Assembly (NCBI GenBank): GCA_003543135.1
Contig: DPJG01000033.1
Coordinates: 116,057-180,056, forward strand
Source of the DNA: Rheinheimera sp.
GTDB taxonomy: Bacteria; Pseudomonadota; Gammaproteobacteria; Enterobacterales; Alteromonadaceae
DNA: 64,000 nucleotides
Direction of reading: 5' to 3'
Shown: piece by piece, positions 3,446-40,669 of the stretch
How the letters are laid out: every line of letters begins with the position of its first letter
Position numbering within the stretch: position 1 is the stretch's first letter
The notes under the pieces: generated by a model
Seen by the model: the letters and a program-made list of their open reading frames with translations, nothing else
Database searches by the model: none
What the model was told of the DNA's origin: nothing
Position numbers and translations under genes: made by a program

Positions 3446-3776
3446 GAGACCTCGTCAGACTGGCTTTTTTACTGAGGGCGAAGCATAACATAATGGGTAC
3501 TTCAGCGAACATCTGAGCTGTATCAGTAGCTTAGTGCTAAGTTGTATAACCATAGGCTGTCAGGGCATGGCTTTCAACGCAGGCAGCGGTAAAGCAGGTA
3601 AAAAGAAGGGAAAATGAAGGTAAAAAGCGCTCTGCAGCCCCGGTTTTTCCCGATGCTGGAGAAATTTGTGCTGCAAATGCCGGTGAGCAAAGTCTGTGAA
3701 GAAAATTCAGGGGTAACAATAAAACGATAAAAAAACCGCCTGACGGCGGTTTTTTTATCTTGGGTAGCGCTTGCGC
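3446..3776. other. Intergenic region 331 bases
   Basis: Lies upstream of the GGDEF/EAL gene and downstream of the cohesin-like gene, both on the minus strand. It should hold the promoter of the GGDEF operon. Apart from the terminator near its left end relative to position 3757 I see no convincing gene, repeat or operator. A 60-codon open frame here has no ribosome-binding site and unremarkable composition. Confidence 0.5.
3729..3757 (-). terminator. Rho-independent terminator after cohesin-like gene
   Basis: AAAACCGCC-TGA-CGGCGGTTTT-type stem flanked by A and T runs on both sides, 20 bases after the stop of the cohesin-like gene. It could work in both directions, but only the minus-strand operon ends here. 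Confidence 0.85.
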
Positions 3777-4370
3777 TTAACGGCGGCGTACACGCAGCAT
3801 CAACAGCAGGGCTGGCAGCATCAGCCAGGCGGTCGCTGGCGCTGAAACTGCAGTGGCCTGATCGCCAATCTGCACCTGAGCCAGTTCAGTGCGCACTTCC
3901 ATATCGAAATAGGGCGTTTGGCCCACAGGCTCATACACCACAGAGGCAGAACCCAGCTGCAGCTTAGCTAAACCGTTTTTCAGCGCAGTAAAGCTGATGC
4001 TGGCCAGGCGGAAACTGCTACCTTGCTGTAACGCAGCTAAGTCGGTCATATCTTCAGTAGAAAAACCAAAAAACAGTTCCCACAGCATCAGCTCGCCGTT
4101 ATCGGCAAAAAAGTCACGATCACTGCTCACGGCCGGCAGGCTCAGCGAGTTACCAAAGCTGACGTTTTGCAGCTGTAACAGCTTGCTGTTAAACAGCAGG
4201 CTGGCGTCAAAACCTGTCACCAGATCCTGAATGTCGCTCAGCCACAGCTCGGCTTTGACAGTGTCACCCACTTCATATTGGTTTTTATCCAGCTGGATAT
4301 TGATCACAGTGGCCTGGCTTTGTGCTGCAAAAAACAGCGCAGCGGCGGCAAATAAAGTTTTAAACATCAT
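3777..4370 (-). CDS. Cohesin-like domain protein with PEP-CTERM-like sorting tail
   Basis: 197 residues. Signal peptide about 1-20 (cut near SQA). Residues about 22-165 look like a cohesin/carbohydrate-binding-type beta-sandwich: the start VGDTVKAELWLSDIQDLVTG and the following F(D)ASLLFNSKLLQL resemble cohesin strands. The C-terminus is a tripartite sorting signal: VSAPAT motif, a hydrophobic helix and RVRRR, as in PEP-CTERM-type proteins processed by an exosortase (variant with SAP instead of PEP). It begins 13 bases after the stop of the dockerin-bearing nuclease, so the two are co-transcribed. Inferred role: surface or envelope anchor for that nuclease. The cohesin call is by pattern, not by search; a generic Ig-like fold is the alternative. 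Confidence 0.7.
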   Translation of the reverse strand: MMFKTLFAAAALFFAAQSQATVINIQLDKNQYEVGDTVKAELWLSDIQDLVTGFDASLLFNSKLLQLQNVSFGNSLSLPAVSSDRDFFADNGELMLWELFFGFSTEDMTDLAALQQGSSFRLASISFTALKNGLAKLQLGSASVVYEPVGQTPYFDMEVRTELAQVQIGDQATAVSAPATAWLMLPALLLMLRVRRR

Positions 4371-4383
4371 TTTTTAATTCCTG

Positions 4384-6909
4384 TTAGTTAATTGCGCAGC
4401 GGGCATAGGTGCACAGCGCAGTCATGGCGCGGGCATCCAGCAAATTCACTTTGCCATCTTTGTTAAAGTCGTAGATCAGCGGTAACACAGCGCCGCTGCG
4501 CAGCAGGTTGTTAAACAGCGTGATATCTTTGTTGTCGACATCACCGTCTTTATCAAAGTCGGCCGGATTGTCGGTTTTCAGCGCCAGTTCAATCACCACA
4601 GGGTCGTGGTCAGAAGAACGGAACTGTGTTGGCTGGTACAAGTCGTTTTGTTGTTGCAGCGTTTTGTTTTCAACGTTGTAGTCGAACAAAATAGGCTCGT
4701 CAGCATTGATGTGCCATTCAGTGGCATAAGTCACCTGAGAAGACAGATTTGTGCTGGCCAGTGCATGGTCTAAATAACCACTTTCACCACTGAACACATA
4801 ACCATAACCATGGCTGCCCTGATATTTACCTACTAAGTCGATAAACCCATTGCTAACAAAAGCGTGGATTGGATCTTCTTTGGCGTACGAGTTTAAGTCA
4901 CCAATCACCAGCACGTCTTTGTCGGCAGAGCCGGTTGGGTTGGTGGCAAGCCAGGCCATCAGCTCGGTTGCAGCCTGCACCCGGGTAGCATTCCAGCAGC
5001 TCTGACCGTCTTTCAGGTCGCGGTCCGGATTGGTGTTGCCACTTGGACAACCGCCTTTGGATTTAAAGTGGTTGACTGCCAGGGTAAAGACTTCGTTGTT
5101 GCTCAGTTGTTTAAAGCTTTGTACCAGCGGTTGACGGTTGCCATGAGCAAACACACCACTGCTGGTCGTCACAGCTGCACCTTGTGGCGCTACTTTGGCG
5201 GTTTTATAGATCAGGCCAACAGCAATTTCGTCCGTGCCTAACTGAGTTAAACCAGGAACCTGCACAAACTGATACACAGTGCCGCCCATCCGCTGATTCA
5301 GTTTGTTGACTAAATCAACAATAGCGCTGCTGCTGCCATAACCGTCGTTTTCAATTTCCATTAAACCAACCACATCGGCATCTAATGCGGCCAGAGCGGC
5401 AACTACTTTGTCTGATTGACGTTCAAACTCGGCAAAAGAACTGGCACCACGTGAGGTTGGGAAACCAGCACCAGCGCCGTCACCGTTAAAATAATTCAGC
5501 ACGTTAAAGCTGGCGACTTTTAAAGTGCCGGTATTTTTCAGTGGCGCTTGTTCGGTGCGTGGGTTGGTGTTTACCAGTTGAGGAGCGCTCACTGGCAATA
5601 AACGCCAGGCGCTGAAGCTGTAATCCAGGGTTCCACGCAGATTGCTAAAGCTGTCGCCGGTGCGTACCGGGTTTTGCATGGTCAAGCCAGGCGCAGGGTA
5701 AATGATGTTGGCCGGGTTTTTGCCGTTTTGCAGGTCATCCAGCACAATTTTATTCCGGCGGTTTTGGTCGCTCAGTGCTACAGCTTCGGCGCTGCCAGGG
5801 CGATACAGATTGGTTGGGGTGAATAACCGCTCTGATGCAAGCGTCAGCTCGCCGTAAGTGCCAAGGTTATAAGTATCAACCACGGTCAGGGTCTGGCTGA
5901 ACTCCACCTGCATACTTTCCAGGCTTTCCCACAGGTTCAGGTTGCTGACTGGCAAAGTCACATTCAGTGCAGCAATGGTTTCACCCACACCACAGTCCAG
6001 CAGCGCAGTGCTGCGTTTTAATTGGGTTTTAGTGAAAAACTCTTCCACTACACCCTGCACTCTTACTTTCTGGCCAGGTTGTGGGTAGTCAGTGACGCCG
6101 CTGTTGTAGATAAAAATAGCTTCTGAGGTGTTGGCATCCGCGTCCTGATCGGCAGCTTCTTCCTGCACAAAAAAGCCGTTGGCTGTTGGCAGTACCTGAG
6201 TGACTACAGCTTCCACCACATGGGTTTTGCCCACTTCCGGCGAAACAGCAGTGGCGCCCTGGATCAGGCTGATTTTTGTGGCGGCTTCACCACAGTTGCC
6301 AAGGCTTGGCGTTGGAACCGGCTCTTCCGGCTCTGGTTCAGTACCGCCGCCGGAGCCACCTGCATGGCTGCCCAGGTTGCTGTAGGTGTTGGCGGCAAAA
6401 CCGTCCCATTCCAGCGCCGGGTCAAAAGCGTCGTCAGCAATAGTGTCACCTTTGCCAATGCTGCTTTTACGCACCAGGGTGGTGTCCAGCGTTTTGACTG
6501 TGCTGCCCCAGGTGGTGCCAGGGTCAACACCAATCTGACCAATCACGTCCAGTAAGGTGGTGCCTTTGTATAAAGCAACGGCGTCATCACCGTTAAAGTT
6601 GCCCGAGCCTAAAGTCAGGCTGGCCGAGGTTTGTTTGTCTTTCAGTGCCTGCTCTGCACTGGTATCCACCAGTACCAACACCGATTTTGCAGCCACCTGG
6701 CCAGACAAGTTAATGGTTTTGCCGGCAGTGACAGCACCATTGGAAAACACTTTGATGGAATAACCGGATAAATCCAGTGGGGTGTCGGCCGGGTTATAAA
6801 TTTCCAGCGCTTTATTGTTTGAGGTGCCTTCGACATATTCCGAAAAAAACGGTTCTGCCTGAAGTGCCGGTGCCAATAACGCCGGCAGCAGGAGCATTTT
6901 AATGTTCAT
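4384..6909 (-). CDS. ExeM/NucH-type secreted nuclease with lamin-tail domain and C-terminal dockerin
   Basis: 841 residues. Signal peptide 1-18. Lamin-tail domain about 19-140 (FFSEYVEGTSNNKALEIYN), Gly/Glu/Pro linker about 182-202, OB-fold-like part about 205-430, then an endonuclease/exonuclease/phosphatase domain about 460-775 with ASFNVLNYF, an EIEND metal-site segment, NHFKSKG, GDLNSY and the SSDHDP catalytic end. Residues 780-841 hold two EF-hand-like loops, DFDKDGDVDNKD and DFNKDGKVNLLD, a classic dockerin pair. Family members degrade extracellular DNA; known ExeM carries a direct membrane sorting tail instead. Here the next gene encodes a cohesin-like protein, so docking is likely. 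A shorter paralogue without lamin-tail and dockerin lies at 38894-40669. Confidence 0.88.
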   Translation of the reverse strand: MNIKMLLLPALLAPALQAEPFFSEYVEGTSNNKALEIYNPADTPLDLSGYSIKVFSNGAVTAGKTINLSGQVAAKSVLVLVDTSAEQALKDKQTSASLTLGSGNFNGDDAVALYKGTTLLDVIGQIGVDPGTTWGSTVKTLDTTLVRKSSIGKGDTIADDAFDPALEWDGFAANTYSNLGSHAGGSGGGTEPEPEEPVPTPSLGNCGEAATKISLIQGATAVSPEVGKTHVVEAVVTQVLPTANGFFVQEEAADQDADANTSEAIFIYNSGVTDYPQPGQKVRVQGVVEEFFTKTQLKRSTALLDCGVGETIAALNVTLPVSNLNLWESLESMQVEFSQTLTVVDTYNLGTYGELTLASERLFTPTNLYRPGSAEAVALSDQNRRNKIVLDDLQNGKNPANIIYPAPGLTMQNPVRTGDSFSNLRGTLDYSFSAWRLLPVSAPQLVNTNPRTEQAPLKNTGTLKVASFNVLNYFNGDGAGAGFPTSRGASSFAEFERQSDKVVAALAALDADVVGLMEIENDGYGSSSAIVDLVNKLNQRMGGTVYQFVQVPGLTQLGTDEIAVGLIYKTAKVAPQGAAVTTSSGVFAHGNRQPLVQSFKQLSNNEVFTLAVNHFKSKGGCPSGNTNPDRDLKDGQSCWNATRVQAATELMAWLATNPTGSADKDVLVIGDLNSYAKEDPIHAFVSNGFIDLVGKYQGSHGYGYVFSGESGYLDHALASTNLSSQVTYATEWHINADEPILFDYNVENKTLQQQNDLYQPTQFRSSDHDPVVIELALKTDNPADFDKDGDVDNKDITLFNNLLRSGAVLPLIYDFNKDGKVNLLDARAMTALCTYARCAIN

Positions 6910-38893: not shown

Positions 38894-40669
38894 TCAGAAT
38901 TTAAAATCCATCAGCAGAGGGTCGTGATCCGAAGAGCGGAACGGCGTTGGCGCGTACAGGCTCTGCTGCTGATGTTTTGATTTAAATTCAGTGTTGTAAT
39001 CAAGCACGGCTGGCTCGTCGGCATTAATGTTCCAGTGCTGGAACTGTGTCAGTTGTTTAGCAAGGCTTGGGCTGGCCAGCGCATGGTCCAGACTGCCGGA
39101 GCGGCCACGATAGACAAAAGACCAGTGCTGACCTTCACCTGCCAGATGCACAAAACCGGCTTGCTCCAGGGTTTTTACCGGATCTTCCATCCGGTAAGCA
39201 TTTAAATCACCAATCACCAGCTGATGGGCTGTTTGAATACCGGTCGGGTGACTGGCCAGCCAGCTGGTCAGTGCTTTGGCGGCTTTGACCCGGCTTGGGT
39301 TCCAGCAGGACTGGCCATCATTTTGATCGCTATCCGGCATCTGTTGTTTTGGGCAGCTGCCTTTGGATTTAAAGTGGTTAATGCTGACGGTAAATTCAGT
39401 GCCGGATGCCGGATGACGGAAACTTTGCGCCAGAGGTGGCCGGCTGCCGCGATCAAAAGGCGCATCCAGTTTCACTGCGGCTTCACCAATTGGGCTTACC
39501 ACCGCCTTGCGGTAAATCATCGCCACTTTAATATCGTCACCACCAGGTTTTACCTTGGTGCTGACAAAGGCATATTGTTCACTGCCCAGTTGCTGGTTCA
39601 GGCTACTCACTATAGTGGCAATGGCGCTGTCAGCAGCTTCACCATTGTTCTCTACTTCCAGCAAACCTATGACATCAGCGTTTAATGCCGTTAAAGTGGC
39701 CAGCATTTTGGCTTGTTGCCGCTTTAACTCTTCTGCGTTGCTGGCGCCTCTTTTGGTTGGGAACTGCGGATTATTGCCGGCGCCGGTAAAGAAGTTCAGC
39801 ACATTAAAACTGGCCACCCTGACAGTGTCGGCCGCTTTGGTGTTGGGGGCTGTTTGTCTTGGGTTGGCGCTCTGAAACTCTGGCGCTTTGCTGACCAGCA
39901 AACGGTAACCGGCTTTGGTTTGCACCAGATAACCTTCAACCCCCTGCACTTTATCACCCACTCGTACCGTGTTCACTGCAGTTAAACCGCCGGTAGGGAA
40001 GGCAATAGGTTCGGCATTTTGTTTGTTGTTGTGATCATCAATGACAATTTCATGCAGCTGTTGTTGCTGCTCAAAAGCGCTGGCAGTTTTGCCTGGTTGT
40101 GTTACTTCTGTTGCGACAAATAATCTTTTGTCGGCCAATAACAGCTCACCGTAACGCGCCAGGCCATAACTGTCGTTCACCACCAGAGGTTGTGGCAGGC
40201 TCAGCCAATGACCTTCCAGACTTTCCCAGTCGGATAACTGCTTAACCGGCAAGGTCAGGCTGGTTTTGCGCACCGGCTGTTGGTCAGCACAAACACTGCT
40301 GTGGCTGATATTGGTTAAGGCTGTCATGTGTTGCAATTCACGCACTGTGCCGGTCAGCTCGAGGACTTGCCCTTGCTGATAAAGGCCGGCTAGTTCTTTG
40401 TCGGCGATTAAAATCGCTTCTGCTGTCTGGGGGTTGTCATCCGGCAGCACACTTTGTAGCAGCAACATCGGCTGTTTGCTGTCTTGATACAAAGTGCCAA
40501 GCACAACCCCCTGAGTGGTCAGGGTTTTGCCAACTAAGGGGCTTTGTGCGCCAGGGCCCTGAATGTCGGCAATGGCGGTAAATTCTTTGCTGCACTTGGC
40601 AGCAAGTGGCAGCGACAATAAAGAACAACTCAGGGGCAACAGCACCCAAGCAGCAGTAGAAAAATTCAT
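38894..40669 (-). CDS. ExeM/NucH-type secreted nuclease, short form
   Basis: 591 residues. Signal peptide 1-24, OB-fold-like region about 28-270, endonuclease/exonuclease/phosphatase domain about 285-590 with ASFNVLNFF, LLEVENNGE, NHFKSKGSCP, GDLNAY and SSDHDP. It is paralogous to 4384-6909 but lacks the lamin-tail domain and the dockerin, so it should be released freely. Stand-alone gene on the minus strand. Confidence 0.88.
   Translation of the reverse strand: MNFSTAAWVLLPLSCSLLSLPLAAKCSKEFTAIADIQGPGAQSPLVGKTLTTQGVVLGTLYQDSKQPMLLLQSVLPDDNPQTAEAILIADKELAGLYQQGQVLELTGTVRELQHMTALTNISHSSVCADQQPVRKTSLTLPVKQLSDWESLEGHWLSLPQPLVVNDSYGLARYGELLLADKRLFVATEVTQPGKTASAFEQQQQLHEIVIDDHNNKQNAEPIAFPTGGLTAVNTVRVGDKVQGVEGYLVQTKAGYRLLVSKAPEFQSANPRQTAPNTKAADTVRVASFNVLNFFTGAGNNPQFPTKRGASNAEELKRQQAKMLATLTALNADVIGLLEVENNGEAADSAIATIVSSLNQQLGSEQYAFVSTKVKPGGDDIKVAMIYRKAVVSPIGEAAVKLDAPFDRGSRPPLAQSFRHPASGTEFTVSINHFKSKGSCPKQQMPDSDQNDGQSCWNPSRVKAAKALTSWLASHPTGIQTAHQLVIGDLNAYRMEDPVKTLEQAGFVHLAGEGQHWSFVYRGRSGSLDHALASPSLAKQLTQFQHWNINADEPAVLDYNTEFKSKHQQQSLYAPTPFRSSDHDPLLMDFKF

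Follow-up and report, generated by a model that had tools for sequence, protein, structure and literature searches.

A secreted nuclease gene of Rheinheimera sp. and the small gene immediately downstream of it very probably encode a split surface anchor: the plug would sit on the enzyme, and the socket on a separate protein that is processed by an exosortase. The two genes were located in the window, by which we mean the whole 64,000-nucleotide stretch that was analysed, and all features given here are on its reverse strand. The first gene (4384..6909) encodes a nuclease of the ExeM/NucH family with a C-terminal dockerin (841 aa), and the second (3777..4370) encodes a small anchor-type protein of 197 aa with a signal peptide, a single cohesin domain and an exosortase-type tail. 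Both open reading frames were confirmed where the initial annotation had placed them, separated by a 13-nt gap (4371..4383) that contains AGGA ahead of the cohesin ATG. Among the 82 ORFs in the window with a length of 100 aa or more, these two genes were the sole matches (E ≤ 0.01) to the dockerin and cohesin profiles built here, whose source sets included the window's own two proteins. The unit is closed 3' of the cohesin gene by an intrinsic-terminator-like hairpin (3726..3759; 15-pair stem and T run; fold z-score -4.1), which had been overlooked. Six terminator-like sites were found against 4.9 expected, and the stem of this one was the longest by far.

The nuclease matched profile NF033681 (ExeM/NucH) with 660.8 bits against a cut-off of 300. 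Its catalytic region covers residues 232–777 (4579..6216), a lamin tail domain lies at residues 20–125 (6535..6852; PF00932, 49 bits), and the N-terminus reads as signal-peptide-like. With the GlyGly-CTERM nuclease profile NF033680 the protein scored 413 bits, below 1300, and its C-terminus is a dockerin, not a GlyGly-CTERM tail. The Dockerin_1 region, residues 783–829 (4423..4563), was scored by PF00404 at 18.5 bits on the entire protein, at 24.5 bits on its last 95 aa and at 23.6 bits in a six-frame search, against a curated cut-off of 22.9. The two EF-hand-like loops noted in the initial annotation are present and are of the calcium type, namely DFDKDGDVDNKD (residues 784–795, 4525..4560) and DFNKDGKVNLLD (residues 814–825, 4435..4470); when 79 dockerins were aligned, D1 and D12 of both loops were conserved in all 79. 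In C. thermocellum dockerins, Ser/Thr recognition residues lie near loop positions 10–11; such residues are absent from the window dockerin, which has NK and LL there, and R, N and L are common at these positions in the dockerins of relatives. A feature that had gone unremarked is the C-terminal C-x4-C pair (Cys833/Cys838, 4396..4413) that caps this dockerin type, which was found at the C-terminus of 79 of the 83 upstream neighbours of cohesin-tail genes and is invariant in a 46-row alignment.

The cohesin-type match proposed for the product of the second gene was borne out by PF00963, which gave 25.4 bits against a cut-off of 24.1 and covered 76 of 139 profile positions (1–76) at residues 23–97 (4080..4304). 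Compared alone with solved cohesins, the protein reached only E 0.011. The cohesin family profile A3 matched cellulosome cohesins in the PDB, a chain with two cohesins giving the best E value (4.7e-18) and the best single cohesin reaching 5.8e-10, and its match to scaffoldin cohesins spans positions 20–161; antibody chains enter the same list from E 6e-4 onward. Because the sorting tail is inside A3, the profile also gathers unrelated PEP-CTERM proteins, and later counts were restricted to rows that span almost its full length. Among the 93 family cohesins, 51 fall short of E 0.01 with Pfam Cohesin. As a control, the eight other PEP-CTERM-type proteins of the genome scored at most 6.3 bits with the cohesin profile (best E 0.005), and 33 ORFs downstream of dockerin genes scored at least 13.9 bits, one of them (L153) being already in the initial cohesin set.

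Following a signal-peptide-like N-terminus and the cohesin, the 197-aa protein ends in a sorting-type tail made up of VSAP, a hydrophobic stretch and RVRRR (residues 175–197, 3780..3848). Profile NF041927, which describes an exosortase-dependent protein, matched this tail weakly with its own tail portion (E 0.023). In the family, PF07589 matched 36 of 93 members at E ≤ 0.01, all three tail parts were detected by a loose script in 91 of 93, and a hydrophobic N-terminus was detected in 87 of 93. The window protein shares with PEP-CTERM proteins of the exosortase systems (EpsH, XrtA) the signal peptide, the P-containing motif, the hydrophobic helix and the basic end. It differs from them in being the second gene behind an enzyme, in bearing a cohesin and in having a tail that the PEP-CTERM profile PF07589 does not match; according to an excerpt of PMC1569441, PEP-CTERM proteins are mostly encoded in single-gene operons with large upstream gaps. 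GlyGly-CTERM/rhombosortase tails occur on extracellular nucleases, according to an excerpt of PMC3237569, and such nucleases belong to the same family with the tail on the enzyme itself, whereas the window tail is on the partner.

In the mechanism that we propose, the nuclease would be exported with its calcium-type dockerin plug at the C-terminus, and the 197-aa protein would be exported separately, its cohesin being the socket for that dockerin. XrtA would process the tail of the 197-aa protein and so bring the cohesin to the cell surface or into the layer of exopolysaccharide, where calcium-dependent docking would then retain the nuclease. Other large hydrolases may be held in the same way, each through a dockerin and cohesin of its own, for example an M9 collagenase in this genome and polysaccharidases and esterases in relatives.

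The cellulosome cohesin-dockerin pairs of Clostridium and relatives have the same domains by profile and two calcium-type loops per dockerin. The window system differs from them by its one cohesin, its nuclease cargo, the partner next door, the exosortase-type tail and the C-x4-C dockerin cap, and cellulosomes are anchored by SLH or sortase. Taking a cellulosome as a multi-cohesin scaffoldin with cellulase cargo, the present system is a different one, with one cohesin in 197 aa and a nuclease as cargo. The OlpA-like surface proteins of cellulosome bacteria hold a single dockerin enzyme with one cohesin, as is proposed here, but they are anchored by SLH in Gram-positive bacteria and are not known to be co-encoded with one enzyme, whereas the window protein is an operon partner with a Gram-negative exosortase-type tail. 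Long-type ulvan lyases are likewise extracellular enzymes of marine bacteria with a dockerin repeat (Kopel 2016, cited in PMC11101340), and the BNR_4 cargo seen here may be of this kind; the word "cohesin" is absent from the text of PMC11101340, and its ulvan lyase passage names no cohesin partner. In an excerpt of a 2017 review (PMC5244752), what cohesin and dockerin proteins do when they are not part of a cellulosome is given as not known, and the literature searched held no description of such dockerin/cohesin-exosortase pairs. The pairs offer a specific function that can be tested in a named genus, the retention of nucleases, collagenases and polysaccharidases at the surface or in the matrix. 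Exosortase substrates would also gain a well-defined role, and protein engineers would have many small, naturally occurring docking pairs to draw on.

Comparative analyses showed that the pair is frequent in the family and is kept together with unrelated enzymes. Among 196 genomes of the family, 66 have cohesin-tail genes, at 93 places in all. The large ORFs whose ends lie immediately upstream of these genes, 83 in number and chosen by position, strand and length, matched Pfam Dockerin_1 in 73 cases (E ≤ 0.01). BLAST divides the upstream proteins into 13 clusters, which include nuclease, collagenase, porphyranase, GH98 and esterase. This cargo diversity led us to reject the explanation that the pairing is just a single nuclease operon passed on by vertical descent. 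The repeated occurrence of the pair with unrelated enzymes suggests a general means by which secreted enzymes are kept on the cell surface; a device specific to the nuclease, as the initial annotation had it, was too narrow a view of a modular pair that serves many enzymes, while the comparative evidence supports the broader claim, namely a dockerin and a cohesin dedicated to each other, an anchor of the exosortase type and a role that does not lie in cellulose breakdown. A home-made dockerin profile, made from 46 of the same upstream tails, found an adjacent same-strand dockerin gene in 84 of the 93 regions, and 2 of its 86 matches among 418 ORFs were located away from cohesin genes.

In the reverse test, 134 dockerin genes were examined (16 further listed places were left out), and a cohesin was located just downstream of 108 and just upstream of 9. 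The check for relatives with a dockerin but no partner came out mixed: 17 of the 134 genes had no cohesin on either flank, and three dockerin-bearing genomes had neither a cohesin match nor an exosortase. Such partnerless genes would fit a dockerin that is merely a calcium-stabilised C-terminal cap, with the cohesin-like protein as a matrix protein that shares the operon but has nothing to do with the dockerin, and a cohesin-like sequence is by itself no proof of binding. We consider this very improbable, since adjacency is kept across 13 clusters and both partners can be recognised as domain types known to bind each other.

Of the nine upstream cases, seven have the cohesin gene between two dockerin enzymes, so a strict one-to-one pairing does not hold. 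These places, the region L278 of relative G177 (four dockerin enzymes and two cohesins within 18 kb) and several genomes in which dockerins outnumber the cohesins found favour a shared scaffold, where cohesins would accept several Cys-type dockerins of the cell instead of one neighbour enzyme and mixed enzyme layers would form. This arrangement is possible and on balance rather doubtful: the distances among dockerins are correlated with those among cohesins (r 0.66, 0 of 2000 permutations), though much of this is explained by shared ancestry, and the genome's own two dockerins differ at loop positions 10–11. After allowing for the catalytic part, the correlation was 0.39 in the nuclease set (0 of 1000), and in the collagenase set it was not significant (0.11, 111 of 1000). 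As split surface anchors, the pairs would each be specific to their own enzyme.

The second pair of the same Rheinheimera genome, which was also overlooked earlier, is unlinked and is carried by the M9 collagenase. The cohesins of the two pairs are 39% identical (31% in a larger alignment), and loop positions 10–11, known as specificity determinants from cellulosome work, are NK/LL in the nuclease dockerin and KR/RR in the collagenase dockerin. Only two sites in this genome were matched by the family dockerin profile, and the weak dockerin candidate G000:C23:5841, in a 661-aa frame (14.6 bits), was set aside because it is not among them. A Pfam cohesin candidate (G000:C32, 22.3 bits, below cut-off) falls within a long ORF with repeats, RHS-like on visual inspection, and was dropped. 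The window cohesin had no match in plasmid records, and a scan of named genomes with it returned two loci, both in Rheinheimera.

An exosortase, to which the initial annotation had tied the anchor, is present in the genome. It is XrtA (TIGR03109, 288.3 bits against 208), adjoining a PEP-CTERM/XrtA glycosyltransferase; a second candidate (G000:C4, 17.8 bits) was under the cut-off and was rejected. Exosortase was found in 66 of 66 cohesin genomes and in 85 of 130 other genomes, and the P value of 4e-10 overstates the case because related genomes are not independent. It was also found in 104 of 107 dockerin genomes. These distributions, together with a gene order and a tight spacing, with a median of 31 nt, that would favour early assembly, are consistent with a carrier role in which the enzyme docks in the periplasm and crosses the outer membrane with the cohesin protein via the exosortase/exopolysaccharide route, export coming first and anchoring second. 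We regard such a carrier as improbable, given the dockerin-free homologous nucleases of exosortase-free relatives, which are presumably exported without it. The split surface anchor may be one instance of a family-wide plug-and-socket sorting system, made up of many mutually specific pairs of a Cys-capped dockerin and an exosortase substrate with one cohesin encoded beside it; the cassette would be movable onto unrelated hydrolases, and the partner may ferry the enzyme outward. Such a system would be a distinct, split form of surface sorting, with the sorting tag borrowed via a docked partner; we put this forward tentatively, our expectation falling somewhat short of even.

The C-terminus of the nuclease is exchanged where exosortase is missing. 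All five Rheinheimera genomes with pairs have exosortase, and three have neither pair nor exosortase; in these three the homologous nuclease carries a different C-terminus and no dockerin. The alignment of such same-genus homologues to the window nuclease runs up to residue 775. Exosortase without this dockerin was found in 47 genomes, including G002, where the homologous nuclease bears another C-terminus, which indicates that exosortase does not bring the dockerin along. The nuclease of genome G111 ends in a GlyGly-CTERM tail.

The reverse strand of the window encodes a secreted ExeM/NucH nuclease of 841 aa (4384-6909; NF033681, 660.8 bits) with an N-terminal lamin tail domain and a C-terminal dockerin, and, 13 nt further on, a putative anchor protein of 197 aa (3777-4370, reverse strand) composed of a signal peptide, a cohesin domain and a tail of the form VSAP / hydrophobic / RVRRR. 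The cohesin gene is followed on the same strand by a hairpin resembling a terminator (3759-3726; fold z-score -4.1). The two nearest named genomes assign the source to the genus Rheinheimera. Dockerin_1 was marginal on the nuclease (18.5 bits for the whole protein and 24.5 for the tail alone, cut-off 22.9). The cohesin that the initial annotation had placed beside a dockerin-ended nuclease was confirmed by PF00963 (25.4 bits, cut-off 24.1). A second, shorter ExeM/NucH nuclease in the window (38894-40669, reverse strand; 591 aa from its ATG) stops directly after the motif SDHDPLLMDFKF, without a dockerin or a tail, and a short paralogue of this kind was present in all 8 genus genomes searched.

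The dockerin search of the genome holding the window revealed one further site above the cut-off, an M9 collagenase on another contig (PF01752, 309.7 bits), followed after 24 nt by a gene whose 206-aa cohesin-like product starts with a signal peptide, ends in a tail of the form PAPP / hydrophobic / RR and was not among the PF00963 matches in this genome. Identity between the two cohesins was 39% when they were aligned as a pair and 31% in a large alignment. The family dockerin profile likewise found two sites in this genome, each with a cohesin partner.

A cohesin profile made from these two proteins was run on 196 genomes of the same family and matched 93 places in 66 genomes; the surrounding DNA was read for all 91 places outside the genome holding the window. 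An ORF of more than 350 aa on the strand of the cohesin ended within 150 nt upstream at 83 of the 93 places (median gap 31 nt; at most 50 nt in 61 of 83). These upstream ORFs were picked by position, strand and length, not by dockerin, and 73 of them matched Pfam Dockerin_1 at E<=0.01 in their last 95 residues. With the dockerin profile built here, 84 of the 93 regions had an adjacent same-strand dockerin gene, and 2 of 86 dockerin matches among the 418 ORFs of these regions were located away from the cohesin; since 46 of these tails had gone into the making of this profile, the Pfam result serves as the independent test. In two of the nine remaining regions (L274 and L277), wider reading found that the cohesin is flanked by a dockerin gene on its opposite side. 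The gene order is reversed in L274, L270 and L277, with the cohesin gene first and the dockerin enzyme second. Among the 93 family cohesins, 42 matched Pfam Cohesin and 36 matched PF07589 (both at E<=0.01), and all three tail parts were recognized in 91 by a loose script.

From the dockerin side, the profile matched 107 of the 196 family genomes, including all 66 cohesin genomes. It gave at least 150 dockerin places; among the matches listed, 134 were examined. A cohesin of the first survey follows 74 of the 150 listed places, and 60 of the other 76 were read in detail. In 33 of these 60, an ORF of 150-260 aa with a hydrophobic tail lay at most 200 nt downstream, and every one of these ORFs matched the cohesin profile at E<1e-3 (one of them, L153, had already been counted in the first survey). 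One further downstream match, at L194, had an incomplete tail, and nine more dockerin enzymes had a cohesin, from the first survey or a later search, within about 700 nt upstream of their reading frame; in seven of these nine cases that cohesin also follows another dockerin enzyme. In this survey of co-occurrence, which the initial annotation had proposed, a cohesin thus lay just downstream of 108 of the 134 examined dockerins and just upstream of 9; for the other 17 no cohesin was found on either side, which counts against a strict one-to-one rule. These 17 genes belong to 14 genomes, all covered by a later cohesin-type search, which gave no match in one (G077) and weak or unlinked matches in some others. 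In the relative G177, two cohesin anchor genes and four enzymes with Cys-dockerins lie together in a region of 18 kb (genes at L278:961-14163), so several enzymes may share a single anchor.

When the 83 upstream proteins were trimmed of their last 70 residues, BLAST clustering gave 13 clusters, of 39 (nuclease), 17 (M9 collagenase), 7, 7, 3, 2 and 2 members and six singletons. Cargo representatives matched Peptidase_M9, Exo_endo_phos, Endonuclease I plus NucH, BNR_4, purple acid phosphatase, porphyranase domains, GH98, glucuronyl esterase with CBM9, CBM6, F5/8 type C, PKD repeats, a propeller repeat and an IgGFc-binding family. The phosphatase at L116 had the weakest dockerin of those inspected (16.1 bits, under the threshold of the profile built here). 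At L112:3-4448, a nuclease ORF with an open 5' end carries an endonuclease I domain and a NucH domain ahead of its dockerin. Across clusters the enzyme part varies and the dockerin with its adjoining cohesin is constant, which is our strongest argument that the two form a functional pair. Comparative genomics supports well the idea of a docking device, to be widened beyond the nuclease of the initial annotation to what would be a modular enzyme-plus-anchor pair.

Among 5.39 million open-access papers (no preprints, few subscription papers), none combined cohesin, dockerin and PEP-CTERM, or "cohesin domain" and PEP-CTERM, and the papers found by further searches gave, in their titles and abstract openings, no description of a dockerin enzyme paired with a cohesin-tail protein. 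The only open-access paper found with both dockerin and exosortase was a 2017 review of methane-oxidising archaea, a passage of which gives the function of cohesins and dockerins outside cellulosomes as not known (PMC5244752). One passage mentions long ulvan lyases that carry a dockerin repeat (PMC11101340), so dockerins on such enzymes had been noticed before.

For 79 pairs, dockerin distances were correlated with cohesin distances (r 0.66; 0 of 2000 permutations). With the catalytic part allowed for, the 38 nucleases gave a partial correlation of 0.39 (0 of 1000) and the 17 collagenases one of 0.11, which is not significant (111 of 1000). Much of this co-variation is explained by shared ancestry.

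The exosortase expected from the partner's tail is present in the genome holding the window as XrtA, adjoining a PEP-CTERM/XrtA glycosyltransferase. Exosortase (PF09721) occurred in 151 of the 196 family genomes, in 66 of 66 with the cohesin versus 85 of 130 without it (Fisher 4e-10, relatedness among genomes ignored). Because related genomes are not independent, more weight is given to the contrast inside the genus, where five of eight Rheinheimera genomes have both the pair and exosortase and three (G111, G157 and G192) have neither. A simple rule is contradicted by 47 genomes that have exosortase but not this dockerin; in one of them, G002, the nuclease has a different C-terminus. In G018, G077 and G186 a dockerin is present and both exosortase and a cohesin match are absent. 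The G077 nuclease (L182 and L228) has a Cys-dockerin with a low-complexity lysine/serine/asparagine extension behind it, and this dockerin looks like a decaying or reused one.

The three exosortase-free Rheinheimera genomes encode a homologous nuclease (45-47% identity). The alignment starts at residue 1 or 17 of the window nuclease and runs to residue 775, where the dockerin part is reached. The dockerin profile found no dockerin in these genomes, and no cohesin-type ORF lay downstream of the nuclease within the flank read. The two nucleases scanned (G157 and G111) continue with a stretch that resembles cadherin but scores below the cut-off. The G111 nuclease ends in a GlyGly-CTERM tail, which the genome search scored above the cut-off (19.4 bits) and the protein scan just below it (14.0 against 15.5); those of G157 and G192 end hydrophobic and almost alike, and the G157 end matched no sorting model in the protein scan. 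GlyGly-CTERM matches occurred in all eight genus genomes. One and the same nuclease thus comes with a tail of its own in some genomes and, in others, with a dockerin plus an exosortase-type partner.

Among 369 genomes of the class, 14 were matched by the dockerin profile at E<=1e-8, three of them in the same family. At phylum level 12 of 398 genomes were matched, every one in the same class. Among 12 loci read outside the family, a cohesin-type ORF lay 22-101 nt downstream in four (L207, L209, L213 and L217) and 793 nt downstream in L212; in the other seven, without a cohesin read, the motif script missed the site (4), the frame overran (2) or a contig end was near (1). The pair system is therefore common in one family, Alteromonadaceae, and scattered among other members of the class Gammaproteobacteria.

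Both cysteines of a C-x4-C motif near the dockerin end are invariant in the 46-row alignment, and the pair occurs in 79 of the 83 upstream neighbours. Against the PDB the dockerin profile matched dockerins and EF hands, and none of the best 60 of 230 rows reached the second cysteine. In cellulosomes, dockerin loop positions 10-11 decide partner choice; here they vary, the window nuclease having NK/LL and the collagenase of the same genome KR/RR. Cellulosome cohesins aligned to positions 20-161 of the cohesin family profile (E 4.7e-18 for the best chain with two cohesins, 5.8e-10 for the best with one), antibody chains entering from E 6e-4 on, and the window cohesin alone reached PDB cohesins at E 0.011 at best. 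A second type of dockerin, which lacks the C-x4-C cap and has the ending ...DFSDYRLWYQCYRS..., was observed at L268:2049-5000 and L269:1873-4818; in both cases a small gene of cohesin type, encoding a hydrophobic tail, comes no more than 20 nt later.
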